A stretch of 24,607 nt of DNA, from positions 1-24,607 of the IMG/VR virus record IMGVR_UViG_3300031800_000016; one strand, 5' to 3'. The stretch comes from a virus. Position 1 is the stretch's first letter. Every line of letters starts with the position of its first letter. A program made the translations under genes and the position numbers. This document shows, one piece after another, positions 2,651 to 20,781 of this stretch. A model generated the notes under the pieces. It had not been told where the DNA came from. It worked only from the letters and a program-made list of their open reading frames with translations, and ran no database searches.

Positions 2651-2665
2651 CTATCTTTTATACTA
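2651..2665 (-). promoter_or_regulatory. candidate late promoter element (divergent copy)
   Basis: On the minus strand this reads TAGTATAAAAGATAG, lying 23 bases before the ATG at 2627 and overlapping the stop codon of the preceding gene. It resembles the GTGTATA elements in the other gaps, especially GTGTATATATAGATAG at 15506-15521, but lacks the initial GTG. No -35 box is visible. It is the weakest of the five copies. Confidence 0.3.
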
Positions 2666-3634
2666 GCCGTAGGATGGCGTTGGAGTCTCTGGAGTTGGGC
2701 TATCTAGGACGCCCGATCCTCTTCCAAAAATAACCAAGTCACACTGATCCGATTCTACATATGTATTATCCTCTGCCAAGACGTTGAAGGTGAGTTGGCG
2801 TGGGTCTGAGGCTATATCGTCGCTACCAGACCTTTGGGCAACCCCAATAAAGCCCTGTGAAAAGTCTGAGCCGTCCGAAGCGGTGTTTGAGCTTGACTCT
2901 CCATGTCTAAATCTAGCTGAACCAAGCGCTACGTAGTAGTTATTGCCCAAAACCCCAGAAGTGAAGGTGAGTCTAAATTTACCAGCTTGTAATCTTTCAA
3001 ACTTGGCAATATTGAACGAGTCATAGACAACCGGCGCCCAATTTGTTGGTGCTGCATTTCCACTCGTATTGAATGTTATCCAAGCCTTTGCTCCAGCTTT
3101 TGCTGAAGACATTCTTCCAGAATCCATCTCAAATACTAGCTGGCCAGAGCCTTTGATGTGAACATCTTCTCTATTATCATTGATGTATTTAAACATCACA
3201 CCTCTGGCTGATGTTCCAGAAGCACTTACAACATTATCTTTAACACTAACATTGCCAGTAAATGCTCTTGAGCCATCTGCTAAGATATACTGCGTATGCG
3301 GGTCAGTTCCGGGAAGTCCACCTAGTGAGTCATGATCTATATTTGACACGCCTTTGAACGGTTCGTACTGAATACCTCCACCATTAACAAAATTAATGCC
3401 TGATTCTGGGACGAACATGCCGCCCGTGTTAGTGACACTATTTCTTTTCGCCCTAACGTCGTTAACGTAAGGCCAAGTAATATCGAAGTCACCGCTTGAA
3501 ACAATCAGGTTGATAGACTCAACAGCGTCGGCCATGTTGTGCCGTACATCTTCAGCAGAAATGAGACCAGCGTTATTGTTCGCTAAGTCAGCATTTATAC
3601 TGGAAAGCAAATCACCTGTATTTTTAACTGTCAT
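2663..3634 (-). CDS. short tail fibre protein with conserved C-terminal fibre domain
   Basis: 323 residues, ATG preceded by AAGGAG. Residues 1-50 contain IN-D/E-L-NN and DVRHN, matching the start of the giant fibre at 10304-14971, so both may attach to the virion in the same way. The segment near residues 90-125 (SLGGLPGTDPHTQYILADG) is a common phage fibre linker. From about residue 170, AWITFNTSG, then DSFNIAKFE and the AGKFRLTFTSG...YYVALGSARF pattern match a domain seen at the ends of many aquatic phage fibres. The C-terminus ends in a Pro/Thr tail (SPTPETPTPSYG). It lies 11 bases after the preceding small gene. Virion location and host adhesion are inferred from the modules. Confidence 0.8.
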   Translation of the reverse strand: MTVKNTGDLLSSINADLANNNAGLISAEDVRHNMADAVESINLIVSSGDFDITWPYVNDVRAKRNSVTNTGGMFVPESGINFVNGGGIQYEPFKGVSNIDHDSLGGLPGTDPHTQYILADGSRAFTGNVSVKDNVVSASGTSARGVMFKYINDNREDVHIKGSGQLVFEMDSGRMSSAKAGAKAWITFNTSGNAAPTNWAPVVYDSFNIAKFERLQAGKFRLTFTSGVLGNNYYVALGSARFRHGESSSNTASDGSDFSQGFIGVAQRSGSDDIASDPRQLTFNVLAEDNTYVESDQCDLVIFGRGSGVLDSPTPETPTPSYG

Positions 3635-3645
3635 TTAAAAACTCC

Positions 3646-4158
3646 TTAATATAAATATCCACCGGCCCTGTGGCCTTGGTTTCTTGCTATGTAATCACTG
3701 CCGGGACTGTATGGCCCAAGTATCGCTTGGCCCCCAACACTGTTGCCGGTTTTGTAGTTGAGTAATGTTCTTTCGTATTTTTCGGATAGGTCTTTATAAA
3801 GAACGGCTAAAGTGCCAGTTACACCTCTAAGGTCTATCGAGGATGGGCCGTCTTTAATTGATATCGCGTTGCTTGCTTCACTTCTTATCTCGCTACCAAC
3901 CATAACACACGCCGCTTTTAAGCAAACCAGATTAATGAATCCGTCATCCCTTGTGTCGGTTTCAGTTGGGTCTGGAGTAAGTGTGCAGGTCTCTACGTTT
4001 ATTGTATAATCATTTAATAAGTCTACTTCAAGCGTAACTAGCTGGCTAGCCACGAGAAGCGTTGTTTCTATTCTGTGGTCGCTGTAAGTGTACTTTGATG
4101 AATCAACATCATTTATTATGTACCTTAGTATGGTTGACATTTGACCTTGCCAAGACAT
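3646..4158 (-). CDS. virion protein, possible head-tail adaptor/connector
   Basis: 170 residues, start supported by AAGGGG. The first 60 residues look helical (ILRYIINDVD, YSDHRIETTLLVASQLVTLEVD), followed by a TPDPTETDT loop and another helical stretch (FINLVCLKAACVMVGSEIRSE), then IKDGPSSIDLRG. Similar TYSDERLE...LKAAC...IDLRG proteins occur in many marine phages as unnamed structural proteins. The helical N-terminus and length would suit an HK97 gp6-like adaptor, but I cannot show a fold match. Its place among fibre genes rather than beside portal or capsid is unusual for an adaptor, so the function is tentative. Confidence 0.5.
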   Translation of the reverse strand: MSWQGQMSTILRYIINDVDSSKYTYSDHRIETTLLVASQLVTLEVDLLNDYTINVETCTLTPDPTETDTRDDGFINLVCLKAACVMVGSEIRSEASNAISIKDGPSSIDLRGVTGTLAVLYKDLSEKYERTLLNYKTGNSVGGQAILGPYSPGSDYIARNQGHRAGGYLY

Positions 4159-4168
4159 AATCTACCCC

Positions 4169-4486
4169 TTATATGTTGCAGTTGACTTTAAAAGTATGGA
4201 TATCTGTGTAATAGGTTCCGCTTCCTCCGCCAAGTGTTACTTTGCCCTGTAGTTTATAGTGTCCTACTTCGTTGAGGTCTCCAGAGACGCTATCATAATA
4301 CATCACCCCGGAAACGGAGCTTCCTGTGCCCTGTGTTGAAGGCGATCTCTCAATAATTAAGTCGCTAGGCTTCCTGAAGCTAACCTGAAGAGCTGCCGCT
4401 TGCGATATATCAACAACACTTCCGTCGTCCTTAACGGTTATTAGAAACCTAGTTCCGATGTCGTCTACATGTATCTCGCTTGCCAT
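4169..4486 (-). CDS. small BppU-like Ig-domain baseplate/tail protein
   Basis: 105 residues. The order GTRFLITVKDDGSVVDISQA, then LQVSFRKPSD, VMYYDSVSGDL, GHYKLQGKVTL and YYTDIHTFKV matches the small all-beta domain at the N-terminus of phage upper baseplate proteins (BppU/DUF2479-like), which also occurs alone in many phages. Such proteins usually join fibres or receptor-binding proteins to the tail. It lies 4 bases after a tiny coupled reading frame (4491-4559) and 10 bases before the 170-residue gene. The fold assignment is from pattern recognition; the assembly role is inference. Confidence 0.65.
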   Translation of the reverse strand: MASEIHVDDIGTRFLITVKDDGSVVDISQAAALQVSFRKPSDLIIERSPSTQGTGSSVSGVMYYDSVSGDLNEVGHYKLQGKVTLGGGSGTYYTDIHTFKVNCNI

Positions 4487-4490
4487 TTTC

Positions 4491-4559
4491 CTACCTTTTG
4501 AGTGTAATGACGTGACTTTGTTTAATGTTTAGCGTTATTTCTACTATGGTTTGTGCCAT
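4491..4559 (-). CDS. possible 22-residue coupled mini-gene
   Basis: A 23-codon frame starts at an ATG sharing one base with the stop of the 60-residue gene (TAATG) and ends at a TAG four bases before the next ATG. It encodes MAQTIVEITLNIKQSHVIT followed by LKR. No independent ribosome site is visible, so it could only be translated by coupling. It may be a real microprotein, a spacer keeping ribosomes moving to the next gene, or the remains of a larger gene. Placement is exact but coding status is unproven. Confidence 0.35.
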   Translation of the reverse strand: MAQTIVEITLNIKQSHVITLKR

Positions 4560-4741
4560 TATGCCACTATTTCATTGCTTAAGTCTATATTTAAAGTTGT
4601 CTCAAGCGAAGTGTATATAACGAAAATAAAACTAGGCTCTTGACTGATCGTTAGTTCAAAATTAAACACCTCACCGTTGTACTTTGGTATAAAGTACTCA
4701 AATGAAAAGCCCGTAAACGAAAATGGTGCTGCTGCAAACAT
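4559..4741 (-). CDS. small hypothetical protein in fibre region
   Basis: 60 residues, starting at an ATG that shares one base with the stop of the 109-residue gene (TAATG), so translation is probably coupled. The product is aromatic and hydrophobic (FSFTGFSFEYFIPKY, EVFNFELTISQEPSFIFVIY) without a clear signal peptide or a continuous transmembrane segment; alternating residues suggest beta strands. It ends with another TAATG overlap. I do not recognise the family. The context suggests a minor virion component or assembly factor. Confidence 0.55.
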   Translation of the reverse strand: MFAAAPFSFTGFSFEYFIPKYNGEVFNFELTISQEPSFIFVIYTSLETTLNIDLSNEIVA

Positions 4742-5070
4742 TACGCATCAGGATCTGTAATAACCACTGCTGAATCAACAGCCGCTGCCGCTGCCTTCTT
4801 GGCCTCGTCGATTTCGTGGGCCTGAACATGCTCCGACAAAAACTGTCTTACTATCCTATGTGTAAAATCGCCCTGAGTTTCAGGGTTTGGAATAGTAGCA
4901 GAGATTGGATCTCCCGCTTCGTCAACGGGATAAATTGGGTTTTCAGGATCAGTCTCGTCAACAACGTAATCAGGATTAGCCACGTCATCAGGCCTTCCAT
5001 AATTTGAGCAGACGGCGTCGAACACTCTGGCTACGTCGTCTTCTGCTATTTCTAACTGGAAAATAGCCAT
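4741..5070 (-). CDS. hypothetical acidic protein in fibre region
   Basis: 109 residues with a strong AGAGGAGA ribosome site before the ATG. The N-terminus (IFQLEIAEDDVARVFDAVCSNYG) is followed by an acidic, Pro-rich loop (about 25-65) and a helical C-terminus (FTHRIVRQFLSEHVQAHEIDEAKKAAAAA). Small proteins with this layout, a short beta start then a C-terminal helix with AKKAAAAA, occur in other phages near tail genes, but I know of no assigned function. It is the first gene after the longest gap in this half and follows a candidate promoter at 5104-5120. Confidence 0.65.
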   Translation of the reverse strand: MAIFQLEIAEDDVARVFDAVCSNYGRPDDVANPDYVVDETDPENPIYPVDEAGDPISATIPNPETQGDFTHRIVRQFLSEHVQAHEIDEAKKAAAAAVDSAVVITDPDA

Positions 5071-5103: not shown

Positions 5104-5120
5104 CTATAGTAAATATACAC
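5104..5120 (-). promoter_or_regulatory. candidate late promoter element
   Basis: On the minus strand this reads GTGTATATTTACTATAG, 34 bases before the ATG at 5070 in a 108-base AT-rich gap. It shares GTGTATA with 15506-15521, 18655-18671 and 20765-20781. No -35 hexamer is visible upstream, so it would fit a phage-modified polymerase better than the ordinary vegetative sigma factor. Confidence 0.45.
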
Positions 5121-5178: not shown

Positions 5179-5712
5179 CTAGTCTAAAAACAGTAAAAAC
5201 GCCGGATTGGCTGTCGCCTCTTCTGCTGCTGCGTCCTGTGTCTCTAGGTACACTTGTGTAACATACATTACATCACCAAAGCCAGACTGAGTTAACATCG
5301 TCAGTCTAATGTACAAATCAGTCCAATCACTGATGCCACTGACATCCGAGATGGTGTACGAATAAGATGTATAATCATCGGTAGATGTGTCCCAATTAGT
5401 TACGGCGGCCCTTACTGTGTAGCTGTCAGTTTCTAACAACTCCAGCTTCAGACCCGGACGGCCCATGCCTGCGTTGTCCTGAGTTAATGCCTTATATTTG
5501 ATGTAAGCATTTCCAGAATCCGGTGTAGACACATCGCTCAGGCGTAAAATACATACATCGTTGCTACCAGTGTCGTCAGTTGAGTTTATCTGAGTCGTGC
5601 CGTCATCAGCACTAGCCTCATCCACACTCGCATATAGATTAGTGTTATTGCCAGACTGATTTTTCCAATTGCCGTCTGTATCGTCTGCGTCAGGTCTTGC
5701 GTATTGTGCCAT
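5179..5712 (-). CDS. virion-associated beta-sandwich-like protein, unassigned
   Basis: 177 residues, starting at an ATG sharing one base with the stop of the 1526-residue fibre (TAATG), so it is probably translated together with that fibre. After a Gly/Asn/Asp-rich N-terminus, the rest looks like a beta-sandwich: IKYKALTQDN, LKLELLETDSYTVRAAV, YSYTISDVSGISDW, LYIRLTML, YVTQVYLET. This resembles carbohydrate-binding or fibre-cap domains, but no specific family motif is visible. Coupling to the fibre suggests a chaperone, cap or receptor-binding partner. The function is inferred from position only. Confidence 0.65.
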   Translation of the reverse strand: MAQYARPDADDTDGNWKNQSGNNTNLYASVDEASADDGTTQINSTDDTGSNDVCILRLSDVSTPDSGNAYIKYKALTQDNAGMGRPGLKLELLETDSYTVRAAVTNWDTSTDDYTSYSYTISDVSGISDWTDLYIRLTMLTQSGFGDVMYVTQVYLETQDAAAEEATANPAFLLFLD

Positions 5713-8700
5713 TATATATTTTGTCCTATCACAAACCCATCATATGTATCTGTTCCTGTAACAAGGAATCCAAATACATCCGCCTTACCTGCTGTGGTAG
5801 TTAAAGTAGGGGCAGAGCCTCCAGCCCATTTAATTGTGCTAAACCACGTCACGGTTCTACTGCCAGTGGCGTCTTGCTGTAATCTAAGCATAAACTTTTG
5901 ACCAGCAGTTTCATTTAATATAGCGAGCGTTCTATTGTCACCTAGAGTAACTGTATGCACGTTCGCTTCGTTTACATCAAACGTAATTGTAGCTCCATCT
6001 GAGTTGGCTTTAAGAGAGGGCTTGGTTGCTTTAGAGAAAGTAACATTTCCACCAGAAGAGATGGCAATAGCGTCAGTGTCGCTTGTGTGCCCAATCGTAG
6101 TGCCGTTGATAATAATGCTATCAACTGTTAGCGTGGTAAGAGTTCCTACTGATGTGATATTGGGTTGTGCAGCAGTCGTAACGGTGGCCGCAGTCCCGGT
6201 GGTGTTTTGGTTAAGAGTAGCAACATAGGAAGAGGCAATAGCAGTTCCTTGCCATGTGCCTGCGCCAATAGTTCCTACGGTAACAATACTGGAGTTACCC
6301 GCCGCTGGTGCTGCTGCGATATCTGAGAGAACTTCTGAAGCGGTGCGACCTTCTACTGCTGTTCCATCAATTCTAAGAAAATCATTGTCCGCAACCGCAG
6401 CATTGGCTGTTAGGAAGTTTCCATTGCTAATACCTGTAGCTAGAGCTTTTACTGTTGCAAGGTTTGTAACCTCTGAGTCCATTAATGCACCAGCAGCAGT
6501 TACGTTGGTGGCATCGGTTACATCAGCACTAGCTTCAATAGCGTCTAGTTTGCTTTGGTCTGCTGTTAGAAAAGTGCCAGTAGTTAATTTTAAGGCTGCA
6601 AGACCAGCACATTCACTATCCATCAATGCGCCTGCCGCAGTTACATTAGTAGTGTCTGTTACATCAGCACTAGCTTCAATACCATCTAGCTTACTGTTGT
6701 CCGCTGAAGTAAAGTTGATTTGAGTTAATCCACCATCACCTACCGAATAAGTTGTATTAGTATAGTTGCCTGCGTGTATTGTGCCAACGTTAGTAGTCCA
6801 GTCAAGATGCTCATTTGCCACAAAACCACTAAGATTATCATGAACAATTTCGCTATCTACACTGTTTACAGTTACGGTGTTCGTGGCAGAGGTTACAAAC
6901 TCGGCACCAACGCCATCAGTAAAGGTGATGGTTTCGCCGTCGTCTACTGTTTGTGGTGTGGAGCCATCAGTGATAATGAAGCTAGACATGCTACCACCAC
7001 CAGCGGCTGCGATCCAAGTGAAACCAGTCGAGCCGCTATCATAGGATAAGAGATAGTTATCGGTGGGAGAGTTTGTTACGTTTAAATGAGCTTCATCAAT
7101 TGACCCATCTTTGTAGTGAACACTATCGATACCATCTTCTAAGAGGGTTAATATTTCTCCAGCAGTCTGGTCTGCTGTAGCACTTGTTGCTATTCCATCT
7201 AATTTAGTTTGGTCAGCAGTTAAGAAAGTGCCTGTAGTCGCTTTAACTGCTGCAAGTCCAGCTAATTCACTATCCATCAACGCACCCGCTGCGGTTACAT
7301 TGGTAGCATCAGTTACATCCGCACTTGCCTCTATAGCGTCTAGTTTGCTTTCATCTGCCGATAGGAAAGTACCAGTAGTTGCTTTGACTGCTGCAATTCC
7401 AGCTAATTCGCTGTCCATCAATGCACCTGCTGCGGTTACATTGGTGGCATCAGTTACATCTGCACTAGTCTCTATACCATCTAGTTTAGTTGCTTGGTCA
7501 TCACTCATTATTCCCCAAGCTGATGTTGTAGCAGCTGGAAGAGCGACGTTGTTACCATCACTAGACTCTACAGTTAGGGAAGTCCCATTAGCTGTAGCAG
7601 AAAGATTTGTAGATACGTTTGTTACTTTAGCTGTGTTAGCTACAACAGCCGTTTCTAAGTTAGCTACATTCGGAATTGCAACTGTGCCTGTAAATGTTGG
7701 ACTTGCTATAGTTGACTTGAGTGCTAATGCAGTTGTTATTGTGCTTGCATAACTTGCATCATCATTTATTGCTGCTGCCAATTCATTTAGGGTATCTAAT
7801 GCTCCCGGAGCACCACCAACCAATGCATCTATAGCTGCTTGTACACCTGCTGGTGTAACGGCCCTAGTTGCGTCAGTTCCTGTAGTTGTTTCTCCGGTTG
7901 TAGCTAACTCGACACCACCAACCGCTGTAAGAGAGGCACTTGGTAGAGTGTAATTGTTAGCACTAGCGTCAATACCATCTAGCTTAGTGTGGTCAGCATT
8001 TGTAAAGTTGTTCTGAGATAACTCACCATCTGTTACAGAATAAGTTGTATTAGTATCAACCCAAGGTACATTGACAACCCCTTGTCCATCAGAATTTAAT
8101 TGTAAGCCATAAGTTCTCGCTGCTGTGGTACTTACAGCAGTAGCGGCAACAGATTGGTCAGTATTGCTGAATAATTCTATTCCACCTTTTGTAGTTGCGT
8201 TTGCTTCTGGTAGAGTATAAACTGTATCTGTAGACGCCACGGTTAGTGTGCCAGCCGCGTCGTCGTATGTTAGCGATACATTAGAACCCGCAGTAAGAAC
8301 CCCATTAACATAGTCTTCAACCTGTTCTTGGGTAAGCTGAGTGTTAGTGTCTGTTGCTGCTACGGTTAGCGTGCCAGCAGAGTCATCGTATACCAAAGAG
8401 ACATTAGAGCCAGCTGTTAATAAGCCAGCCACATAATCGTCTACTTGATCTTCTGTTAGCTGCGTGTTAGTATCAGTAACAGTACAGGTTATCGTAGCAG
8501 AATAATCACCGCTCGTCGTGTTAGTTTCGCCATCTATGGTGATACCAGCGCCAGCGGTTAAATCTACGCCAGTCATATCTCCAGCCCCACCTCCGCCACC
8601 TCTAAACTCACCAGCGTCAACCCTTTTTAACGCCGAGTCGGTTGCGTCCCACAAGAGAAGATAATCAGCATCTTCACTGGTTACATCAACAAGACCACTA

Positions 8701-10292: not shown

Positions 10293-10303
10293 TTTTCACC
10301 CCT

Positions 10304-13300
10304 TTAGAATTGATTGTAAGAACCCATGACGTGCATGTTGCCATTCTGGTCAAGCCACGCAACAACATCTCCAGACTGGTTTTTCCACTCTTGAACTCTT
10401 TCGGACGCTGTGTTTGGTAAAACTTCAAGAGTCGCTGTTGATACAAAGGTTCCGTTGCCAATTGAAACACGCTTGTTTGTTGAGTCAGCTTTGATTGATC
10501 CACCAAGGTTCATCTGATTAGATTCTAAAGTTACAGATGTTCCATCGCTAAACCTTATGCCTCCAAGAACATTGATGTCACCAGACACACTGATGATTGG
10601 TCTCGCAGTAGATGCTATCTCAAACGCTGGGGTTGTGGTCATAGCGTCTACGTTATGCCTCATGGTCATGAGCGTTTTCTCATTTCCATCAGCCCCAGTG
10701 AATGTAAACGCAACACCTCCGTCGGGATTATTGCTATAAGAATCATTTTTGTTAAAGATGGACGCTGCTTTATCTGTACCAAAGAAATTGGAAGAGTGTT
10801 TGATGGTCATGTTGTCGGCTCCACCAGTAACCGTGAACTTACCATCTGGAACTTCTAAGTACTTGTCTGATGAGTTTGGCCCCATTATGCCTTTTAGAAT
10901 GGTATAGTTATCCCCAACACCAATGTATAAGCTATAGTCTGTAGTGGCATTCCTACCTAAGTTATCTTGACCGATAAAGATAGAATTACTTATACTGGAG
11001 GATATTTCATCGTCTCCAACATTGTGACCAATAATAATGTTACTCAGGCCGGTAGTGATACCTTCGCCAGCGTAGTTACCAATGAGAATATTTTTTCTAC
11101 CGTTGCCTATGTTGGTGCCAGCCCTGTATCCAACGGCTATATTGTCATCGCCAGAAGTCAGATTTTTTAAGCCTGAAGCCCCATAAGTTATATTTCTGAA
11201 ATTGTCTGTTAAGTCTGCTTCGCTTCTAGATAGAGGACTCAAGAACCCAGCAAATTGGTTTCCGTTTTGATCTCCAAATAATGTTGAAGATAAATTAGTA
11301 TCTCTTGGGTTTAGAGCTAGGTCTTTCTGGTTGCCGCACTCATCTTGGAAAATGAGCTTCTGACATTCTCCGGGAACATCAGAGGCGGTTACAAAAAGCT
11401 TTCCAAAAGAGGGGGCGTTTGAGGCAGCTCTACCCTGACCAAATTCCTGCATGGATATGTCGCCACCAACTGCGAGCTTGGCGTTTGGAGTCTCAAGGTC
11501 AATTCCCACCTGTCGCGAGGGGTCAATAGAGATAGCAACCCCTTTAGTACCATCATGATAAAGGCTGATCTTTCCAGCGTTGGCTGCATATTCTACCTCT
11601 AACCCATCTGCGCTGTCTATATAGTTTGAGCCAGACAATAACTGCAATCGAGAATAAGTACCGTCTCCACCAGTCACTCTAGCTACGGCATTTCCTGTAG
11701 ATTGGACATTGAATATGGTATTTGGCAGTGGGTTGGTTACCATGTTGGTTATACCAACTAAGCCAGCCCCCTTATAGTCACGCATAACTGTAAATGCATT
11801 TACGGGGGCGGTCATATCGTCATAAACAGATATGTCAAGCCTGTCTGTTTTTTGGTTATGACTGTCTACTACGTCTAGCTTATCTTTGTAGTTAATATCA
11901 AAGCCATAGAAGTGTTCTTTACCGTCAGTCTTCTTCTTATTAGAAGTTCTTGAGATAAATTTTTGACCAACAGTAACTCCCGACATAAGGGCAGAATAAC
12001 TTACGGTGTAGTCTGTCCCTGAGCTTAGGAAGTTAACATCTGAGATGTTATGAATTTTACCCTCTGGAGAAAGCGGGTTTGGCTTTATAAATTCTTCTCG
12101 CGATAGATATGTAGCGTTAGCTTCCCCAAAGGACTCTGCCGTTGTTACGTCTGTCGAACCCTGCTGCGTAGTTGTTACGGAGGCGTTAATAGCGGGAGTG
12201 CCGGAATAATTAAGAACATACATCAGTCCGCCAAGGTGGGCCCCGGTGGGCTGTGCCCTTAGCGTGGGAATCTCAATAACTGGCGTAATATCACTCCGTG
12301 ATTGATACCGAGCCCCTAATTCTTTCGCGTAACAGTTCGGCGCCAAAGTTAGTTCTTTGAGATTGAATGTCTCCTCCCCGACGGTGACGGTGGCATCGAG
12401 ATATTCAAACATCAGCCCCGTGATAGCAAAACAGTCTCTTCGTTGTTCATCAGGCCACAACTCCCCTTTAGAATCGTCTCGCCTATATCTATCATAGGCA
12501 GAGCCAGCGGGAACGTCGTCTCCCTTTAGATAGCTATATGGGCCAGAGGTTACAACAATTTTACCTGCGCCAATTTCAGCGTCAAACTTGGCCTGAACTT
12601 CAGCGGCGGTGTCGCTGCTGTTGATATCCACCTTAAGCACTACAACAGTTCTATCATTATTTTTCTGATCGAAGACTGCTTGTATTCCGGGCTTGTAGCC
12701 TCCAGTACACACTGGGGCTGGCCAAGATACCAACGAAGCCCCCCTGTGGTCTGGGATTGGCGGGTATCCAGCAGGGGCGTGGCCACCCCCAATTGCATGG
12801 TTGGAGTTACTGGATCGGAGGTTATGAATGGGGGTATCGTGACTAAAGTGACCAGTGTTGAAGAACAAAATAGAATAGCCAAATGTGGGGTCATTAAGTT
12901 TTAGGGCAGGGTTCCACATTGCACTTTCATCTAGCGGGACGCCTGCCATAGCGAGACAGCAACAAATGAAATCTGGTATTGCTCTATTGGGGTCATTTAC
13001 ACCATCCGCTTTTCTACCATTTTGAATAGCGTAGGTAATCGCCTCAGCAACCTCAAGCCGAGTGGAGGTATCCAACAGGTCTGTGGTTCTTACATTGCCA
13101 CCAGCAAGAAGGGGTGTGTTTGTTTGAAATTCAAAGTAAAAAGACTCTCCAGCCGTACCGTGTTCAATACGGAATTGGCCCTCATTAAAGTCATCTGGAT
13201 AGTTGTGTGTGATTGTGCAGCCAGCACCAAGGTAGTCGCCTTTAGTTATCGACCTGAGAAAAGTGTAAAACTTCTGCCCATCGCTAGTCTCTCCGCCGCC

Positions 13301-14971
13301 ACTAGTTAACTTGGCAGGATCAATTACTAATTGCTGTAAATCAACGCCACCCCATTGAGAATTAGAAGTGCCCGTAAATTCTACGATCCAGCCAACGCCA
13401 CCTGTAACACTTGCGTCTGTGACAGTAATATCATCAGATGACATCGAGTAAATTGCCGACGTGATAGCCAAACTAACTGCGGCAGCTGTAGCGTTCCAAG
13501 CAATATCTCCAGTTTGATACATTATGGGATCGCCGCCACCATAGTAGGTCAACGAAAGCGTGAATGTTCCACCGTTAGCATAATGTTTAATTAATTGTTT
13601 TTCATTTCTAGTTGTGGTTCCGCCCGCAATAACCACTTCATTATCTGGCCTGAGGAAGAATCCAAAGCATCCGCTTTCTGCCATCAGCGACACTGTTTCT
13701 CTACCAATAATCCTGTCTGTCTGCAGATGGTTTCCAGACGCAATATTTAAACTGATATTGCTATTCCAAGATGATTGGGAATATATATTGTGGTCTTCCA
13801 GACAGTTGGTAGGGGCACTACCAGATGGGCTAAACAGCCATTCGTATCTTCTCCTGTATGTTTCGGGAGAGGTGCCACTGGCAACCAGTACCAGACCAGC
13901 ACCGTCTGCGGATTGATCATCAAGATACCCGCAGGGAGTAGGTTGCCCATCGCAAATACCTGAGCTCGCTAAATACAGTGTCTTACACTCGTATACGCAC
14001 GATTCGACGGCGTGGAAAGTTAGTGTGGTGAGTGAGTCAGCTGTAAGGTCAGAGAAGTGACCTTGCCACTTGAGGTCGGGAACTCCTAAGCTATATTTGT
14101 CGCTTTCGTTGGGGACTATACCTCCCGCAACTGTGATTAAGCCATAAGATCCAGACGGTGCGGCGGTTCCTATACCCAGATCTCCGCCAGAGAAATATAT
14201 GTCATCATTTATAGAATGTGATAACCAAACACTCTTCCAGCCAAACGTTTCTTTACCAAGATCATACATACCTGACAAAGAGGGGGACACTGAGCCAGAA
14301 ACCTCAAGAGTACTGCCAGTATGAAGACCCTTAGTACCAATACCTAGCCTAAGATTGTCTAGCTCTCCATACATTAACGGTGTGTTGCCGCCACCTTCAG
14401 AAATATCTGGACACTCTGTAAGAGAAGAGACATCGTTGATACCAAGATAGAACCTATAGCTGTATTTTTCTCCAATTCCACTTCCGTGATAATATCCAGC
14501 GCCATTACCAATAGCAATGTTACTGCTTCCATACTTATTGCTTTGTAGGGCGTTGGAGCCTATTACCGTGTTTGAATGACCAAATGTATTGCCAGCTAAG
14601 GATTTATATCCAACGGCTGTATTGCCACTACCATACACATTACACGTTTCTGAATAAGCCCCAATCGCAGTGTTTTCACCGCCATTAAAGTTATGACGCA
14701 GCGCGTAGTAGCCAAACGCTGAATTGTCAGTGCTTACATATTCAGGAAGGTAAAGATAATCTAAAGCTCCGGCCCCACCAATAGTAGTTCTAGTGTGTGG
14801 AGTCGAAAAATTAGCAGCTTGTATATCCTTGCCCTCTAAGAAGAGATGCGTAGAATCAATCATGTCAATTAGATTGTGTCTAACATCGTAGGGCGATACC
14901 AACATTCTAGAGTTGTCTAGAATTTCGGAGTTGATATTGGCTGTTATAGTTTGCTTTGGCAGAATAGGCAT
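10304..14971 (-). CDS. giant multidomain tail fibre with trimeric-adhesin-like beta-roll repeats
   Basis: 1555 residues, AAGGG before the ATG. Residues 1-50 carry the DVRHN module shared with the 323-residue fibre. Residues 83-160 hold five N-[ST]-A-[IV]-G repeats at exactly 17-residue spacing (Asn 83, 100, 117, 134, 151), the pattern of YadA-like trimeric adhesin head beta-rolls; a second array of four lies near 1277-1335. Around 200-310 the phrases YDLGKETFGWKSVWLS and YSLGVPDLKWQGHFS are duplicated fibre modules. A long middle part (about 325-1000) is Cys- and His-richer and not fibre-like (SCVYECKTLYL, ICCCLAMAG, NHAIGGGHAPAG, PIPDHRGAS). The C-terminus (RVQEWKNQSGDVVAWLDQNG) matches a common fibre end. 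Probably a homotrimeric adhesin. Confidence 0.88.
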   Translation of the reverse strand: MPILPKQTITANINSEILDNSRMLVSPYDVRHNLIDMIDSTHLFLEGKDIQAANFSTPHTRTTIGGAGALDYLYLPEYVSTDNSAFGYYALRHNFNGGENTAIGAYSETCNVYGSGNTAVGYKSLAGNTFGHSNTVIGSNALQSNKYGSSNIAIGNGAGYYHGSGIGEKYSYRFYLGINDVSSLTECPDISEGGGNTPLMYGELDNLRLGIGTKGLHTGSTLEVSGSVSPSLSGMYDLGKETFGWKSVWLSHSINDDIYFSGGDLGIGTAAPSGSYGLITVAGGIVPNESDKYSLGVPDLKWQGHFSDLTADSLTTLTFHAVESCVYECKTLYLASSGICDGQPTPCGYLDDQSADGAGLVLVASGTSPETYRRRYEWLFSPSGSAPTNCLEDHNIYSQSSWNSNISLNIASGNHLQTDRIIGRETVSLMAESGCFGFFLRPDNEVVIAGGTTTRNEKQLIKHYANGGTFTLSLTYYGGGDPIMYQTGDIAWNATAAAVSLAITSAIYSMSSDDITVTDASVTGGVGWIVEFTGTSNSQWGGVDLQQLVIDPAKLTSGGGETSDGQKFYTFLRSITKGDYLGAGCTITHNYPDDFNEGQFRIEHGTAGESFYFEFQTNTPLLAGGNVRTTDLLDTSTRLEVAEAITYAIQNGRKADGVNDPNRAIPDFICCCLAMAGVPLDESAMWNPALKLNDPTFGYSILFFNTGHFSHDTPIHNLRSSNSNHAIGGGHAPAGYPPIPDHRGASLVSWPAPVCTGGYKPGIQAVFDQKNNDRTVVVLKVDINSSDTAAEVQAKFDAEIGAGKIVVTSGPYSYLKGDDVPAGSAYDRYRRDDSKGELWPDEQRRDCFAITGLMFEYLDATVTVGEETFNLKELTLAPNCYAKELGARYQSRSDITPVIEIPTLRAQPTGAHLGGLMYVLNYSGTPAINASVTTTQQGSTDVTTAESFGEANATYLSREEFIKPNPLSPEGKIHNISDVNFLSSGTDYTVSYSALMSGVTVGQKFISRTSNKKKTDGKEHFYGFDINYKDKLDVVDSHNQKTDRLDISVYDDMTAPVNAFTVMRDYKGAGLVGITNMVTNPLPNTIFNVQSTGNAVARVTGGDGTYSRLQLLSGSNYIDSADGLEVEYAANAGKISLYHDGTKGVAISIDPSRQVGIDLETPNAKLAVGGDISMQEFGQGRAASNAPSFGKLFVTASDVPGECQKLIFQDECGNQKDLALNPRDTNLSSTLFGDQNGNQFAGFLSPLSRSEADLTDNFRNITYGASGLKNLTSGDDNIAVGYRAGTNIGNGRKNILIGNYAGEGITTGLSNIIIGHNVGDDEISSSISNSIFIGQDNLGRNATTDYSLYIGVGDNYTILKGIMGPNSSDKYLEVPDGKFTVTGGADNMTIKHSSNFFGTDKAASIFNKNDSYSNNPDGGVAFTFTGADGNEKTLMTMRHNVDAMTTTPAFEIASTARPIISVSGDINVLGGIRFSDGTSVTLESNQMNLGGSIKADSTNKRVSIGNGTFVSTATLEVLPNTASERVQEWKNQSGDVVAWLDQNGNMHVMGSYNQF
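10975..11142 (-). repeat. second set of beta-roll coding repeats
   Basis: Four units (NIAVGYRAG, NILIGNYAG, NIIIGHNVG, NSIFIGQDNLG) are spaced 17, 17 and 18 residues apart near the C-terminus of the same protein. They are the same class as the N-terminal array, separated from it by more than 1100 residues. Confidence 0.75.
14506..14725 (-). repeat. five 51-bp beta-roll coding repeats
   Basis: Five 17-codon units encode the consensus N-[ST]-A-[IVF]-G-x-x-[AS]-L; the third residue is Ala in most units and Val in one. The Asn codons are spaced exactly 51 bases apart. The repeat is conserved in the protein rather than in the DNA. It matches the head repeats of YadA-type trimeric adhesins. Confidence 0.8.
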
Positions 14972-14981
14972 CTAAAATCCC

Positions 14982-15467
14982 TTACTTGAAACTAATTTCT
15001 AATGTATTGTAGTCAAATTTTACATTATCCCCTGCGTAAATAATCCTTGGGTTATCTAAAGCAGCGTGCATTAGTACATTTCCGGGTGAGTTATCTTCGT
15101 CTGTACTGTGATATGGTGAATCAACAATAGCTATTCCAGATACCCATCCCCAATCAAGAAGAGCGGTGTTGAATACTATTTGACCACTGTTTCTAACTGT
15201 TCCACTTCCAGCCTCAAAATCCTCTTGCGTATATGAGAATTTCGTTGAGTTGGGAGCCCCAATATTTACTCTACTGTAACCAGTTCCTGAGCCGTTAATA
15301 CCGCTTGGAATCTCTAGAATAGTAGTGCCTGTATCTGCATCAGCGAGATCTGCCTCTCTCACACCGCTGACCAGTGCAATTGAAATATTGGATGGAGCAG
15401 AGAAACTTTCGCCTCTAAATACGAAATTTAAGAGGCCCGACTCTAAATAATTTGATAGAGCAGCCAT
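14982..15467 (-). CDS. tail/fibre-associated virion protein of a widespread phage family
   Basis: 161 residues, ATG after AATAGGAGATAATA. The start (ALSNYLESGLLNFVFRGESF) followed by SNISIALVSG, a Gly/Ser-rich loop, GYSRVNIG, GTVRNSGQIVF, DWGWVSGIAIVD, NVLMHAALDNPR and a C-terminal LEISFK matches a family I recognise from many marine and cyanophage genomes, usually annotated as virion structural or tail fibre protein without a proven role. It is the first gene after the capsid terminator, preceded by the candidate promoter at 15506-15521 and a palindrome at 15496-15507, and followed 10 bases later by the giant fibre. I infer that it starts the tail-fibre transcription unit and contributes to the fibre attachment region. 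Confidence 0.7.
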   Translation of the reverse strand: MAALSNYLESGLLNFVFRGESFSAPSNISIALVSGVREADLADADTGTTILEIPSGINGSGTGYSRVNIGAPNSTKFSYTQEDFEAGSGTVRNSGQIVFNTALLDWGWVSGIAIVDSPYHSTDEDNSPGNVLMHAALDNPRIIYAGDNVKFDYNTLEISFK

Positions 15468-15507: not shown

Positions 15508-15521
15508 ATCTATATATACAC
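15506..15521 (-). promoter_or_regulatory. candidate late promoter element
   Basis: On the minus strand this reads GTGTATATATAGATAG, 39 bases before the ATG at 15467 and directly after the capsid terminator. The layout of terminator, then this element, then ribosome site and gene is what a new transcription unit should look like, making it the best supported of the five copies. Confidence 0.5.
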
Positions 15522-15523
15522 AT

Positions 15524-15560
15524 AAAAAAAGAGCCACCCCCACAAATATATGAGGGTGGC
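15524..15560 (-). terminator. rho-independent terminator after the major capsid gene
   Basis: On the minus strand GCCACCC and GGGTGGC form a 7-base-pair GC-rich stem around a 14-base loop, followed by CTCTTTTTTTA. The T-run is present only on the minus-strand side, so it ends transcription coming from the capsid gene, whose stop is about 30 bases upstream of the stem. Confidence 0.85.
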
Positions 15561-15591
15561 CGCTTATCTTAATAGCTTTTAGTGCTAATAA

Positions 15592-16599
15592 TTAGAACGA
15601 TCCAAGGATCACTCGTCTATTATCAAGAACACCAAAACCAATTTCAGCCCAACCGTAGAAGCCAGCTCGCTGTTGTCTGTGAAGAGTAGGATCTTCAAAG
15701 ACTTCTAGCTGCTGCTTAACAGGCATGACAAAGCTGTCATTCGAGGACTGGTCTAAACCAACGACTAATTCTACGTCGTTAGTTTCTACAGCACCTGATA
15801 GAGAACCAGTAAAGAACGTCTGGTACTCTTGGTCTTCTCCAAGTTCGTCAAGATCATGGAGGTTTACACCAAAGATGCGTGTGATTGGAGCTCCGTCTTC
15901 AGAAGCCGTGTAGATTTCTCTACGTGTAACTTCATCAATTTGATCCAATCCCCAGTTGCGAACGTCTTCGAGAGCTTCTGGACTCACGTAAAGGTCAGTC
16001 AAACGACCGCGTCCCATTGATGCACTGTTTCCGCCAGAGTTGCGGCGCATAACAGTTTGCATAAGAGAAACCATTCGTTTGGTAAACTGACCGGCGGTAG
16101 CGTCGGCATCATAAACCAAGATGTTACGATCAACGCCAGCAGCCAAAATGGTGTGCCATCCATCGTCATTCATCTTCTTAGTGAAGCCTGCTTCCATAAC
16201 TTGCATAGCACGCGAAACGATGTCCCAACGGGCTTCACGAGCGTATCTCAACAAGTAGTCGATTGAGCTTGTGATGCTGTATGTGGGAATCATTACGTAA
16301 TCGCCTTCTACGCTACGTTCTGGAATTCTACCGTGTCCGGGGTTAGTGTAGGCAACGTGTTCGCCTTCAAGTCCCGGTGAAATCAAGTCAAGGGGAAACT
16401 CGGTATTAGCACCGGGTTCTACATTGATTGTTTCAAAAATATCTCCAAGAATGTTGCCAACTAGAACACCTTTTCTCAAAGGAAGTTCAAGCGCTTTGGC
16501 AAATTCTCGCTGAGCTGCTTGAGCAACGTTAATATCGCTGTCACCGGAACGGCGAAGCAGTGCGATAAATTCATCGCTAGGTCTATCTGTATAAGACAT
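15592..16599 (-). CDS. major capsid protein (HK97-fold type)
   Basis: 335 residues with a strong AAAGGAGATT ribosome site. It follows the protease-scaffold and decoration genes and is followed by a strong terminator, the usual setting of the most expressed phage gene. The product has a short helical N-terminus (FIALLRRSGDSDINVAQAAQREFAKAL) and a mixed alpha/beta body with features of HK97-like capsid proteins: VMIPTYSITSSIDYLLRYAREARWDI as the long spine helix region, a Gly/Asn-rich loop (RRNSGGNSASMGRGRLTDLYVSPEALEDV) and a C-terminus ending GWAEIGFGVLDNRRVILGSF, typical of the P-domain strand. The fold is inferred from these features and the context. No processing site can be assigned with confidence. 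Confidence 0.85.
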   Translation of the reverse strand: MSYTDRPSDEFIALLRRSGDSDINVAQAAQREFAKALELPLRKGVLVGNILGDIFETINVEPGANTEFPLDLISPGLEGEHVAYTNPGHGRIPERSVEGDYVMIPTYSITSSIDYLLRYAREARWDIVSRAMQVMEAGFTKKMNDDGWHTILAAGVDRNILVYDADATAGQFTKRMVSLMQTVMRRNSGGNSASMGRGRLTDLYVSPEALEDVRNWGLDQIDEVTRREIYTASEDGAPITRIFGVNLHDLDELGEDQEYQTFFTGSLSGAVETNDVELVVGLDQSSNDSFVMPVKQQLEVFEDPTLHRQQRAGFYGWAEIGFGVLDNRRVILGSF

Positions 16600-16629
16600 T
16601 ATTTTAATCTCCTTTAATTATTAAGTTTG

Positions 16630-17130
16630 CTAGTTAGCGTAGCCGTGGTTAGGTAGGTTAACTTCAACTTTAGCATAACCATCTTCATCCTTAGCGGAAA
16701 GGAATCGACCAATCGCTAAGTTACCAGAGGCTATTACACTCATTGGATAAGAACCATTACCGATGTTTCCAGCGTTATCTACATAAGCAACGTCGCCAGC
16801 TGAGGGAGTACCCACAATGCTGCTAGTTACGACATAGCCTTTACGTAGGAGGGTAACTTTACCACCAAGCTGAACTTCATCTTTGTGTTGGTTTAGATGA
16901 GTGCGTGTTAAGTCTTTGTCAACAACATCATTCATTAAAATACCAACGGGACTATCAGTTGCAGCAACAGTAGCCTTATAAACTACCTTGTTTACACCCT
17001 GATCCATTGCAGCACCAGAACCAGCTGTACTATCGTGAACAACACAACCGCCGCGTGTTACGGCTGCTGCACCACCCCAGAAAAAGCTGATATCGGTTTG
17101 CAGTTCGTATCTATCTGCTTTAAGAGCCAT
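16630..17130 (-). CDS. capsid decoration / head-stabilising protein candidate
   Basis: 166 residues, ATG after GAGGAGAAAA. It lies between the scaffold and the major capsid genes, the usual place of a decoration protein. The sequence reads as a small beta-barrel: VTRGGCVVHDS, SPVGILMNDVV, VQLGGKVTLLRKGYVVTSS, AGDVAYVDNAGNIG, LAIGRFLSAKDEDGYAKVEVNLP. The order of a gated start, a GDxxYVD turn, xxxIGR-L and VEV-L resembles DUF2190-type and lambda D-like decoration proteins. No membrane or signal segments are visible. It could alternatively be a minor head protein. Confidence 0.6.
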   Translation of the reverse strand: MALKADRYELQTDISFFWGGAAAVTRGGCVVHDSTAGSGAAMDQGVNKVVYKATVAATDSPVGILMNDVVDKDLTRTHLNQHKDEVQLGGKVTLLRKGYVVTSSIVGTPSAGDVAYVDNAGNIGNGSYPMSVIASGNLAIGRFLSAKDEDGYAKVEVNLPNHGYAN

Positions 17131-17164
17131 CTTTTTTTCTCCTCTAAAAATTTAGATAAAAAAC

Positions 17165-17857
17165 TTACTTGTTTAAAACGTTTGATTCAAGCCAAGATGC
17201 GATATCGGCACGGGTTGATTCCACTTCATCCATTTCTGGATCTGGCTCAACTAGTGCTGCCTCGGTTGACTCGACTTCTTCAAAAGCTTCTTCCAACTCA
17301 GCTTCTGCTTCTTCAGCAGCCTCAGTTTCGTTAGCTTCTTCCGTCACTTCTTCGGAAACCTCAACGGAGGCTTCTTCTTTTTTGTCGTCTTTTTTGTCGT
17401 CTTTTTTGTCGTCCTTCTTTTTCTTATCCCACCACTTGGCGACGATGGCGTCAAACGCTTCATCACTAAGAGCTGCGTAAAGCTCAAGGGACTCCTCAGC
17501 TTCTTCGCTATCAAAGCCAGCTTCAACGAGCGCGGCTTTTCTACGAGAGGCTACTTCTTTTTCATGCATTTCATCAACCTTAGCCTGACTTGAAGCCAAG
17601 TCGTCTTGAGATTGAGCTAATGCATCTTCTAGTTCAGCGATGCGAGCCTGAGTAGACTTAATGGTCTCTTCAAGTTCAGCAGCTGCTTCCTTCTTTGCCT
17701 CTACGTCAGCTTCAAAAGCCTCTACAGTGGAAGCAAACTCTTTATCTTTTGCTTCTTCTACAGATTGCTTCATGGCTGTGTTTTCAGCTTTGGAGGCAGA
17801 AAGGTCTTCTTTAAGCGAAGCGACTTGCTGTTCCAAAATTTCATGATTATCTGACAT
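17165..17857 (-). CDS. internally initiated scaffold protein (nested gene)
   Basis: An in-frame ATG at codon 263 of the fusion gene is preceded by AGGAGATATCAAA, a strong ribosome site (AGGAGA at 17865-17870) with a 7-base spacer, as good as those of the other genes here. Translation from it gives 230 residues beginning MSDNHEILEQQVASLK, exactly at the border between protease and coiled coil. This matches lambda, where Nu3 scaffold is made from within protease gene C. It would supply extra scaffold without protease. The site is seen in the sequence; its use is inferred. Confidence 0.7.
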   Translation of the reverse strand: MSDNHEILEQQVASLKEDLSASKAENTAMKQSVEEAKDKEFASTVEAFEADVEAKKEAAAELEETIKSTQARIAELEDALAQSQDDLASSQAKVDEMHEKEVASRRKAALVEAGFDSEEAEESLELYAALSDEAFDAIVAKWWDKKKKDDKKDDKKDDKKEEASVEVSEEVTEEANETEAAEEAEAELEEAFEEVESTEAALVEPDPEMDEVESTRADIASWLESNVLNK

Positions 17858-18643
17858 TTTGATATCTCCTATTGAAAGTTCATCAGTAATATCTTCTACA
17901 ATAAAGGATCGGCTTTTCTCAAATATTACGCTTCTTGGATTAGCAGGCTTAGAAACTAAACCCTTTCCAGAAAACGCTATATTTTTGAGCGCCCTACCAA
18001 TGGTAAATCCTTCATACTTCCCCTCACCGCCATAGGCGCGTAGGTGTTTTGTCAGGAATGCCGATTGTTCATCTCTTGCGACTACATGATTAGCTCCTTT
18101 GGGGTCTACCAGAGCGTAATCGAAGTCCGAGAAAAGACATTCCATTGAGACAAACCACTTGCCCTCCTCTATCTCGGCTATGATCTGTTGCATCCGATCC
18201 CTATTTTCGGGGTCAGTCCAACAGTTATAAAGAACAGCTTCCGTTACTATGTCAAAGTCTTCTGGAGCCTGCTCTTCTGCCGATATTTTTTTTCCTTCTT
18301 TGTTTAAAACATAGGAACTGGTTATGTGTCCTATGATATCATTTTCATTGTGCATGAAGTTGAACTGCTTGTCTTCCGGTGTATTTCTAGCAGCCCATGT
18401 TGATTCAGATGTAAAAACATCATCGTTCTTATTCCATCCGGTTGAAACCAATACTGATTCTAAGTAGTAAAGGTCAAACTGGTCAGGATTACTCTTCTTG
18501 TTTGATGCTATAATTTTTGCGATACTGTCACTAACCGGCTTTTCTGTGGTAGATATCGTGGCAACTGAAGCGTATATGATGGAGGCCTGAGACTTAACGA
18601 GCTCAGACACGCCATCTTCTATTTCTTGCTTATAAGTTTTCAT
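17165..18643 (-). CDS. prohead protease-scaffold fusion protein
   Basis: 492 residues, ATG after AGAGGTAAG. Residues 55-250 look like a herpesvirus-assemblin-type (U9/U35-like) prohead protease: a His in FNFMHNENDIIGHI (His98) and a Ser in GKWFVSMECLF (Ser166) are the likely catalytic pair, followed by AFSGKGLVSKPANPRSVIFE (223-242). Residues 268-395 form a long coiled coil (LEQQVASLKEDLSASKAENTAM through ELEDALAQSQDDLASSQAKVDEM). Residues 412-430 carry KKDD repeats, then a very acidic tail, and finally a small helical end (ADIASWLESNVLNK), often the capsid-binding part of scaffolds. It sits between portal and decoration/capsid genes, as expected. The scaffold guides head assembly and the protease then digests it. 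The family assignment is by motif only. Confidence 0.8.
   Translation of the reverse strand: MKTYKQEIEDGVSELVKSQASIIYASVATISTTEKPVSDSIAKIIASNKKSNPDQFDLYYLESVLVSTGWNKNDDVFTSESTWAARNTPEDKQFNFMHNENDIIGHITSSYVLNKEGKKISAEEQAPEDFDIVTEAVLYNCWTDPENRDRMQQIIAEIEEGKWFVSMECLFSDFDYALVDPKGANHVVARDEQSAFLTKHLRAYGGEGKYEGFTIGRALKNIAFSGKGLVSKPANPRSVIFEKSRSFIVEDITDELSIGDIKMSDNHEILEQQVASLKEDLSASKAENTAMKQSVEEAKDKEFASTVEAFEADVEAKKEAAAELEETIKSTQARIAELEDALAQSQDDLASSQAKVDEMHEKEVASRRKAALVEAGFDSEEAEESLELYAALSDEAFDAIVAKWWDKKKKDDKKDDKKDDKKEEASVEVSEEVTEEANETEAAEEAEAELEEAFEEVESTEAALVEPDPEMDEVESTRADIASWLESNVLNK
17377..17412 (-). repeat. three exact 12-bp repeats in scaffold gene
   Basis: CTTTTTTGTCGT (plus strand) occurs three times in a row, encoding the KKDDKKDDKKDD run between coiled coil and acidic tail. 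The A6 runs on the coding strand and the 12-base period make it prone to copy-number change in steps of four residues, and possibly to slippage. Confidence 0.9.
17865..17870 (-). promoter_or_regulatory. internal ribosome binding site for the scaffold
   Basis: AGGAGA on the minus strand, 7 bases before the in-frame ATG at 17857, inside the protease-scaffold gene. It encodes part of the linker (SIGDIK) just before the coiled coil and decides the nested start. Confidence 0.7.
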
Positions 18644-18654
18644 GTGTCTTACCT

Positions 18655-18671
18655 CTAAAATAAGTATACAC
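18655..18671 (-). promoter_or_regulatory. candidate late promoter element
   Basis: On the minus strand this reads GTGTATACTTATTTTAG, in the 56-base gap between portal and protease-scaffold. It begins only 28 bases before the ATG, so a start site 6-8 bases downstream of it would leave a very short leader with the AGAGGTAAG ribosome site. It may drive scaffold, decoration and capsid up to the terminator at 15524-15560. Confidence 0.4.
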
Positions 18672-18699
18672 GCTTTTTAAAAAAGTATTATAAAAACCC

Positions 18700-20724
18700 C
18701 TACTTTATACTAAATTCAACGTAGCAACTGATGGCTTGTTGTCTGAAATTATCTATAGTCATATCCTCAATAACTATGTTTTTATCGCTTAATGTTTCTT
18801 TAAACGCCTTGGGGGCTAGTTTGCCCTCTGCTAGGCTGGCATGTATTGTTTCATCGCTCACCTCTGACAAAAGATCTAGGTTTGTTAATACGTCAAATTT
18901 TATTCTTTCAATGTTAAACATATCAGATTTAGTCATTTGTCTAAGGTTTTTCTTGTTGTTCATCTTTAGAAAGGCCGTAGTAACAGACTCGGAAATCTTA
19001 TCGTAGGAGTTTTGAGACCAAGTAATGAGTTCAGCTAAGCCGGGTTTTGACTTTGGTTTTTCAACCCTTTTCTTTCTTGGCTTTTCGTCTCTCTTAAGCA
19101 AAGGTCTTCCTTCATTTTTAGGTGGTTTAGCATTGTTTTGTGGGGCTTTGGGCTCCTTGTTTTTCTGCTCTTTTTCGTTAAGCTTCGATTGTTTGTCCAT
19201 TTTTTCCAAGTCTTTTTTGTGGTTGGCATTATGGAAAGGGGAGGCTTTATCAGGAGTTCCACTAGAGTCCCTCTCTTTGAGCTCTCTCTTAAGTCTAATT
19301 TTTTCCACCGTTGGTATTTCCTTAAATCTTTCCAGTATCGTTTCGTGTGATATAATGTCTCTATCCGCGAGTTGTAGTAGCAAATTCTTTTCTGCTGTAT
19401 CGTCAGAGAGATTCATTTGGTCAAAGTGTACATAAGCTGGTCTTCTAAAGCCCATTGCTTTTCGTACTGTCTCCATCTCACCCTGCCAAAAACTAGACAG
19501 TAAGTTCCTTCCGTACTGTAATCTTTCAACTAAAGTCTTAAGACTGATGAAGTTATTGGTAAACCCACCACCATTTCCAGCTAACCCTGTTAGCGTCGGG
19601 GGAACACCAAGCCCAGCATATATACTATTGAGAACTGAATCATATTTTTCAGAACCTAAAAACTTATATACTTGACTGTTTGATTCCGTGTAGGATAGCT
19701 CTGGGCCCCAAACTAATTCCATAGTTCCACCGCCAGCATTACTTGCTAGGATGTCGCGTAGCTTGTTAATCGCGGCTTTATTGGGTAGGATCTTATGCTC
19801 TAAACTACCTAGAGTCCATAGGCGTATATTGGATATTGCGCCGTCAAGAGCTGATAAGTCCGCAAGTCTCATTTTTTCTAGCATGACAATGTCGTCTAGA
19901 ATAGCATAAATCATTGGGTTTGCCCACAACTGCCAATCGTCCTTCTTGTAGTAAAAGACGGAAAGACGGTCTTGTTCCAGCGGTATTTCTCTATCACCCC
20001 GTTCAATAGCTCGTCTAGCTGCTGGCGGCAAAGTCGCTAGAACATCTTGTGGGAGACCTCCTTTTTTGCCAACCTTATCGCCAGCGAAAGAGTTAGAGAT
20101 TGTGTAGTTTTTCTGACCAACAAACAGAGACAACCCACCATCTTTAATATTGATAGTGTTTGGATTGAAGAAGTTGTATCTCCAAGGTATTACGTTTTTT
20201 GTTATTTTTGGTATATCTACTTTGATATCGTTAGCTACGCTCTTCATGAAGCTTGACAGCTCAGGAGTAACCTTTGCGTTGCTCTTGTATATTATTACGT
20301 TGCCCGTTCTATATAGGTTATTAAGGAACCTTTCAGATCTTTCTTTACCATTGATCTTTTTAAACCACTGTTTGAAGAATTTTTCAGCAGTTCTATCTGG
20401 ATGAACAAGGCTAATACCCTGACTACCAAAGTCTCCCATCAAATCAACTACATTCCGTATGATTCCAACTTTGTCGTAAGCATCCATACACATCTTGATA
20501 ATGCGCTTCTGGTTGTTTGGAATTCTTTCTGCGTCTCTAAACGAGTAGTAGTCCCTCCTTGTGAACTGAGGTCGTACCGATCTATTAGTCTCAATATTCA
20601 AGAAAGTACTGGTATTGGCGTAGCTTTTGTTTAGACCAGCATAAGAGTCAATATTATCGCTATAAGCAGCAAATGCGTCCTGCTTGTCTTCATCGCCTGA
20701 CCAAGTTATCATGTTTTCACTCAT
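18700..20724 (-). CDS. portal protein with Lys-rich C-terminal extension
   Basis: 674 residues, ATG after GTAGAGGCATAAA. It directly follows terminase and precedes protease/scaffold, the canonical place of the portal, the dodecameric ring at the head vertex through which DNA enters. Portal-like features include the early VRPQFTRRDYYSFRDAER, YDKVGIIRNVVDLMGDF, FLNNLYRTGNVIIYKSN (wing region), VFYYKKDDWQLWANPMIYAIL, and a stem-like stretch YDSVLNSIYAGLGVPPTLTG followed by GGGFTNNFISLKTLVERL. Residues about 500-555 are an unusual Lys/Pro/Asn-rich linker (KEPKAPQNNAKPPKNEGRP), followed by a roughly 110-residue helical domain at the C-terminus that ordinary portals lack. The assignment rests on order and general pattern. 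Confidence 0.85.
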   Translation of the reverse strand: MSENMITWSGDEDKQDAFAAYSDNIDSYAGLNKSYANTSTFLNIETNRSVRPQFTRRDYYSFRDAERIPNNQKRIIKMCMDAYDKVGIIRNVVDLMGDFGSQGISLVHPDRTAEKFFKQWFKKINGKERSERFLNNLYRTGNVIIYKSNAKVTPELSSFMKSVANDIKVDIPKITKNVIPWRYNFFNPNTINIKDGGLSLFVGQKNYTISNSFAGDKVGKKGGLPQDVLATLPPAARRAIERGDREIPLEQDRLSVFYYKKDDWQLWANPMIYAILDDIVMLEKMRLADLSALDGAISNIRLWTLGSLEHKILPNKAAINKLRDILASNAGGGTMELVWGPELSYTESNSQVYKFLGSEKYDSVLNSIYAGLGVPPTLTGLAGNGGGFTNNFISLKTLVERLQYGRNLLSSFWQGEMETVRKAMGFRRPAYVHFDQMNLSDDTAEKNLLLQLADRDIISHETILERFKEIPTVEKIRLKRELKERDSSGTPDKASPFHNANHKKDLEKMDKQSKLNEKEQKNKEPKAPQNNAKPPKNEGRPLLKRDEKPRKKRVEKPKSKPGLAELITWSQNSYDKISESVTTAFLKMNNKKNLRQMTKSDMFNIERIKFDVLTNLDLLSEVSDETIHASLAEGKLAPKAFKETLSDKNIVIEDMTIDNFRQQAISCYVEFSIK

Positions 20725-20747
20725 TTTATGCCTCTACGCTTTCAATC

Positions 20748-20768
20748 GGAATGTTAATTGGAATGTTA
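20748..20768 (-). repeat. direct repeat upstream of the portal gene, possible regulator site
   Basis: GGAATGTTA on the plus strand (20748-20756 and 20760-20768) is repeated with a 12-base period, placed between the candidate promoter at 20765-20781 and the portal ribosome site. It could be a downstream regulator site or an accident of AT-rich DNA. Confidence 0.3.
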
Positions 20769-20781
20769 CAATATTATACAC
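20765..20781 (-). promoter_or_regulatory. candidate late promoter element
   Basis: On the minus strand this reads GTGTATAATATTGTAAC, in the 60-base gap between terminase and portal, starting 57 bases before the portal ATG. TATAAT within it matches a bacterial -10 box exactly, and TGTG precedes it, but no -35 box is visible at the usual spacing. Confidence 0.45.

Follow-up and report, generated by a model that had tools for sequence, protein, structure and literature searches.

Late transcription in phage T4 starts from promoters that have an 8-bp TATA box at -10 and no -35 element and that are read by gp55 with the co-factors gp33 and gp45 (PMC2988020). In phage phiEco32 the promoter consensus is tAATGTAtA, and there, as in phage 7-11, the sigma gene has phage promoters upstream (PMC4331800). 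Here we describe a seven-base element, GTGTATA, that stands before virion genes in a complete IMG/VR record of 24,607 bases (IMGVR_UViG_3300031800_000016, the whole of which we call the window) and in its relatives. Judged from sequence, GTGTATA is very probably the switch that turns on late genes in a large group of uncultured phages, each with a small sigma gene. The best explanation, and in our view a likely one, is a late promoter served by a phage sigma factor of about 170 amino acids (aa) that would act on the host RNA polymerase and feed an autocatalytic loop. The likeness to T4 late promoters lies in a single AT-rich -10 element, the lack of a -35, the placing before virion genes and a phage sigma that retains only domain 2 (PMC2988020); the difference lies in the motif, which is GTGTATA here and TATAAATA in T4. 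With phiEco32 and its sigma factor gp36 there are in common a phage sigma, a short single element, the TGTATA core and phage promoters before the sigma gene (PMC4331800), but GTG is found here where phiEco32 has AATG, and the tAATGTAtA consensus is not matched beyond TGTATA. A search of the literature on GTGTATA as a late promoter returned nothing relevant.

All main genes of the window are on the minus strand, in the order HNH endonuclease, ERCC4 nuclease, ClpP-type head protease, terminase large subunit (terL, 20785..22773), portal-position gene, scaffold-position gene, cement protein, capsid-position gene, Gp80-like fibre protein, long fibres and small genes. The names portal, scaffold and capsid follow gene order and relatives; Pfam and PHROG matched none of the three proteins, and for the capsid-position protein tblastn gave no more than a weak hit, to the head protein of phage G. 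GTGTATA occurs at the head of four units on this strand, each time as a candidate promoter. The copy at 20775..20781, with the terL stop codon a few bases upstream, precedes the portal-position gene (18700..20724, 674 aa), the first gene of unit 1. That at 18665..18671 precedes unit 2 (15592..18643), made up of the scaffold-position (492 aa), cement (PF22758) and capsid-position (335 aa) genes. Unit 3, the Gp80-like fibre protein (PF23140) and the long fibre genes (5179..15467), is preceded by the copy at 15515..15521, which comes directly after the intrinsic terminator of the capsid block (15532..15561, minus strand, a 13-pair stem and a T run), and unit 4, small genes of 109, 60, 105, 170 and 323 aa (2663..5070), by the copy at 5114..5120.

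These four sites, and the position of one of them behind the capsid terminator, agree with what a first-pass annotation of the window had reported, coordinates included. That annotation had also held that all five gaps longer than about 30 bases contain the element. With longest open reading frames (ORFs) there are seven gaps of at least 34 bases, and GTGTATA is present in 5071-5178, 15468-15591, 18644-18699 and 20725-20784 and missing from 2628-2662, 4487-4558 and 17131-17164. Its fifth element (2651..2665, minus strand, TAGTATAAAAGATAG) lacks GTG and shares bases with a stop codon, and in five relatives the corresponding gap holds nothing that clearly matches it; we dropped it as lying outside the system. 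The proposed fibre II unit, which rested on it, goes with it, while the portal, scaffold-cement-capsid, fibre I and small-gene units are retained. The raw total of five copies in the window is within chance (shuffle mean, 3.6; 28 of 100 shuffles with at least 5), so the signal is one of position and strand, not number. On the coding strand all four copies are in gaps and none is inside a gene, as had been claimed; on the opposite strand one further copy (4611..4617, plus strand) lies antisense inside the gene at 4559-4741 and is taken as chance. With 4 gap, 0 sense and 1 antisense copies, GTGTATA ranks first in gap enrichment among the 936 7-mers that occur in gaps.

Relatives were found by a search of viral contigs with the terminase protein, which yielded 80 loci; gap counts were made on 53 representatives, and two scans for such loci gave at least 599 matches each. 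In the 122 gaps of at least 30 bases downstream of the terminase gene in these representatives, GTGTATA is the commonest 7-mer, present on the coding strand in 90, against 1 for its reverse complement TATACAC and 0 for its reversal ATATGTG; shuffled gaps gave a mean of 0.9 and a maximum of 4. The intergenic enrichment that the first-pass annotation had put forward as a test is seen beyond the window as well. Density tells the same of coding DNA and of the other strand, neither of which has the motif at equal frequency: per kb, there are 6.75 sense copies in gaps, 0.006 sense copies in genes and 0.030 antisense copies in genes. Within the virion genes of these loci there are 2 sense and 11 antisense copies, which may point to avoidance of the sense orientation.

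The motif also keeps to homologous places. It is found in 54 of 54 portal-scaffold gaps, in 27 of 29 gaps between the capsid and the Gp80-like gene and in 53 of 80 terminase-portal gaps, and the homologue of the 109-aa gene is preceded by it in G001, G002 and G005; the short gaps inside the scaffold-cement-capsid block have it in 1 case of 71. These positional counts are partly non-independent because relatives share descent. The flanks vary while the seven core bases stay, and the three places are mutually independent within one genome. Because the motif served to select the sites, base counts at the seven core positions are circular; the figure of 54 of 54 is free of this. The distance from motif to start codon is mostly 49-61 bases before the portal gene, 24-28 before the scaffold gene and 50-60 before fibre I. 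Lying always in a leader near a start codon, GTGTATA might instead be no promoter at all but a site, such as a leader element, at which RNA or DNA is processed or bound, an explanation that we find hardly credible: in the capsid gap of most relatives the element comes directly after the T run of the terminator, where a new start is needed, and its flanks are promoter-like, with T-rich DNA before it and a loose [A/T/C]T after it.

We read five longer relatives as well (173.8, 162.7, 135.8, 43.7 and 43.4 kb). In the 20-62 bases before starts GTGTATA is again the top 7-mer, with 29 copies against 2.3 expected, 6 for the reversal and 1 for the reverse complement, and the genes behind the distal sites resemble structural genes or members of the small-gene block, as judged by sequence and position with no family search. 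Genes were called with a simple program of our own, and gap borders are approximate. When longest ORFs are taken as genes in the large relatives the enrichment in gaps is weak, because GTG and TTG start codons swallow sites; with a better choice of starts it is strong. Outgroup stretches (Microcystis phage MaeS, Bacillus phage Stills, part of T4 and part of phiEco32) show no gap enrichment, and GTGTATA is absent from the gaps of the 27-kb phiEco32 stretch searched.

Host sigma-70 promoters also have TATA(A)T at -10, and many of the sites continue TATA as TATAAT or TATATT, with T at position 8 in 79 of 97. The sites could accordingly be plain host promoters, in which a host sigma-70-type holoenzyme reads a TATAAT-like -10 and GTG is a habit of the lineage. 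We consider this quite unlikely. The GTG stands invariant directly before TATA at sites independent of one another, although these differ in the final bases of the hexamer, and its register is not that of the known TGn extended -10. The first-pass annotation had noted no -35 element in the window, and across the relatives too none is conserved at late sites, TTGACA at 16-18 bp included; the agreement of fibre sites with TTGACA is at the level of shuffles, and portal and scaffold sites have a weak excess of two-mismatch matches, which at portal sites fall inside terminase codons. Moreover, the phages have canonical promoters of their own. In three longer genomes, gap sites of the form TTGACA-N16-18-TATAAT number 16, 30 and 8, against 1, 4 and 4 in the reversed control; they are mainly in non-structural regions and none has GTG before it. 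There are thus two promoter classes that lie largely apart in the genome, and the motif placed before virion genes is distinct from the host-type one.

A further element lies just downstream of the portal promoter, where CATTCCAATTAACATTCCGATT occurs in tandem, its two copies spaced by 11-12 bases, or about one helical turn (window 20744-20765, minus strand). The pair follows terL in 67 of 80 loci, is met once elsewhere in 897 kb and is kept in loci without the portal promoter. Possible roles are packaging, or control of the portal gene as an operator.

The motif is accompanied by a sigma gene. Of the 25 loci in which 6 kb or more is available upstream of terL, 24 have a gene for a protein of about 170 aa, 3.9-7.7 kb before the terminase. 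Sigma-70 region 2 (PF04542) scores above the Pfam cut-off in 10 of 11 relatives, and region 4 is not detected by Pfam; a domain-2-only sigma fits a promoter without a -35. The most conserved stretch, RPLENFL..LSNRLKNF.RDN, falls within the portion that we align with region 2.3-2.4 by eye, and in an AlphaFold2 (AF2) model residues 3-78 superpose on bacterial sigma domain 2 (6psr_L: Z 8.9, root-mean-square deviation 2.1, 70 residues, 26% identity). Multisubunit RNA polymerase (PF00562) was found in none of G001 to G008, in a search with a positive control, so the host polymerase is presumably used; T7-type polymerase (PF00940) gave no match, in a search without a positive control. The positional conservation, the bias to gaps and to one strand, the separate sigma-70 promoters and this linked region-2 sigma gene together argue for the dedicated late promoter, with a modified or phage-encoded factor, that the first-pass annotation had proposed. 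GTGTATA would form the core of a late promoter that is specific to these phages and resembles a -10 element; the sigma, encoded in an operon upstream of the terminase, would bind host RNA polymerase, and the sigma-bound polymerase would read GTGTATA without a -35 element. Late in infection, transcripts of the portal, scaffold-capsid, fibre and small-gene blocks would begin within the leader, just downstream of the motif.

Comparison of the 170-aa sigma with gp55 gave nothing significant by BLASTP or hhalign, and the PHROG matches differ, gp55 falling to phrog_234 and the protein described here to phrog_351/1740. Neither was hhalign significant against phiEco32 gp36, and tblastn against the named phages in the collection found no detectable copy. 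The gp33 (PF16805) and gp45 (PF02916) families had no match, in searches without a positive control. By analogy the system may work like T4 or phiEco32 late transcription; kinship with gp55 or gp36 could not be demonstrated by these comparisons.

At the head of the sigma operon there is usually a GTGTATAAT site. Of 21 distinct loci, 18 carry GTGTATA there, 0.67-1.05 kb before the sigma gene; the TATA continues as TATAAT in 16 or 17 of these (counted singly, each of the last two bases agrees in 17 of 18), which favours the explanation by plain host promoters. Across a 17-base spacer these sites have a TTGACA/TTGAAA-like or TG..TTTT-like stretch upstream. A site of this build may be usable by host sigma and phage sigma alike. 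With GTGTATAAT and a -35-like sequence spaced by 17 bp at the head of the operon, the first sigma probably comes from transcription by the host polymerase, and further synthesis would then be amplified by the phage sigma itself. In L013, L014, L049, L019 and L034, GTGCTT/GTGTTT recurs at a distance of 17 bases upstream of the sigma-operon TATAAT, and it may be an activator site.

Several findings weigh against this mechanism. About a third of the terminase-portal gaps are without GTGTATA. Locus L041, the exception among the 25, has GTGTATA and no sigma gene that we could find, and L028, L030 and L046 have no site before the sigma operon. The AF2 model is of moderate quality (predicted local distance difference test, 74; predicted template modelling score, 0.45), and a Foldseek search with it returned nothing at E <0.001, though the top rows were mostly sigma factors. 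The window has no sigma gene either; the fragment ends 1.8 kb before the terminase, so that a copy belonging to this phage would be off the edge. Locus L006, among the closest relatives of the window by terL identity (89%, among the matches listed), has its sigma gene at 2867-3367, and we infer that the window's own phage carries one beyond the fragment.

The last point on this side is a second sigma-like protein of 157 aa with a region-4-like C-terminus, encoded at G001:C1:58463-58936 (plus strand) and having homologues in G002 and G003, both 40% identical to the G001 copy. Being conserved in all three, it could be the reader, and it is the main alternative to the 170-aa protein in that role. 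The promoter would then be real and its reader a different one, either this second sigma-like gene product or an activator working with host sigma; activators can replace a -35, as they do in T4 middle genes. We think such a reader unlikely, in that the region-4-like end would predict a -35 element and the 170-aa sigma is encoded near terL in nearly every locus of both the window's group and a sister clade. As a separate observation, GTGTATAAT is present at the very end of the second sigma-like gene in G001 and G002.

The sister clade is represented by L127, a contig of a Flavobacteriales metagenome-assembled genome (MAG), with a terminase of 52% identity, a sigma homologue of 28% identity and no GTGTATA. 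In a sample of eighty L127-like loci, the sigma gene is present in all 48 that have more than 4.5 kb upstream, and GTGTAT occurs in 59 of 105 gaps (reverse, 1; shuffles, 2.4). GTGTATT is slightly commoner there than GTGTATA, and of 33 aligned sites 30 have G before the core; the motif takes the form GGTGTATTA, as against GTGTATA in the window's group. The order of terminator and then motif is kept. The sigma has thus diverged and the motif shifted, with GTGTA kept. More tentatively, and with some doubt on our part, the 170-aa proteins may form a new family of domain-2-only phage sigmas apart from gp55 and gp36, clamp-free and with a GTG-anchored -10, in which sigma and motif changed together in two clades and a hybrid host/phage promoter before the sigma operon gives the late switch its autocatalytic character.

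Such a system would give a readable transcription map for a large group of uncultivated phages, with host-type promoters in non-structural regions and GTGTATA before virion genes. The two clades would also offer a natural series of sigma/promoter pairs for the question of how sigma domain 2 reads a -10 without a -35, which has so far been studied mainly with T4 gp55.

As to the host, the only genome matches were to a SAR202 MAG and a Flavobacteriales MAG, which we do not take as proof of a host. The stretch G003:C1:964-4570, on a phage contig, holds genes that we take, by eye, to resemble Planctomycetes-type cytochrome/DUF1501 proteins, possibly a hint of the host or the sign of a chimeric contig. 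In the window, the fibre protein of 1526 aa (5712-10292, minus strand) contains many near-identical internal repeats, such as DVTDATNVTAAGALMDSE, that are visible in the translation.

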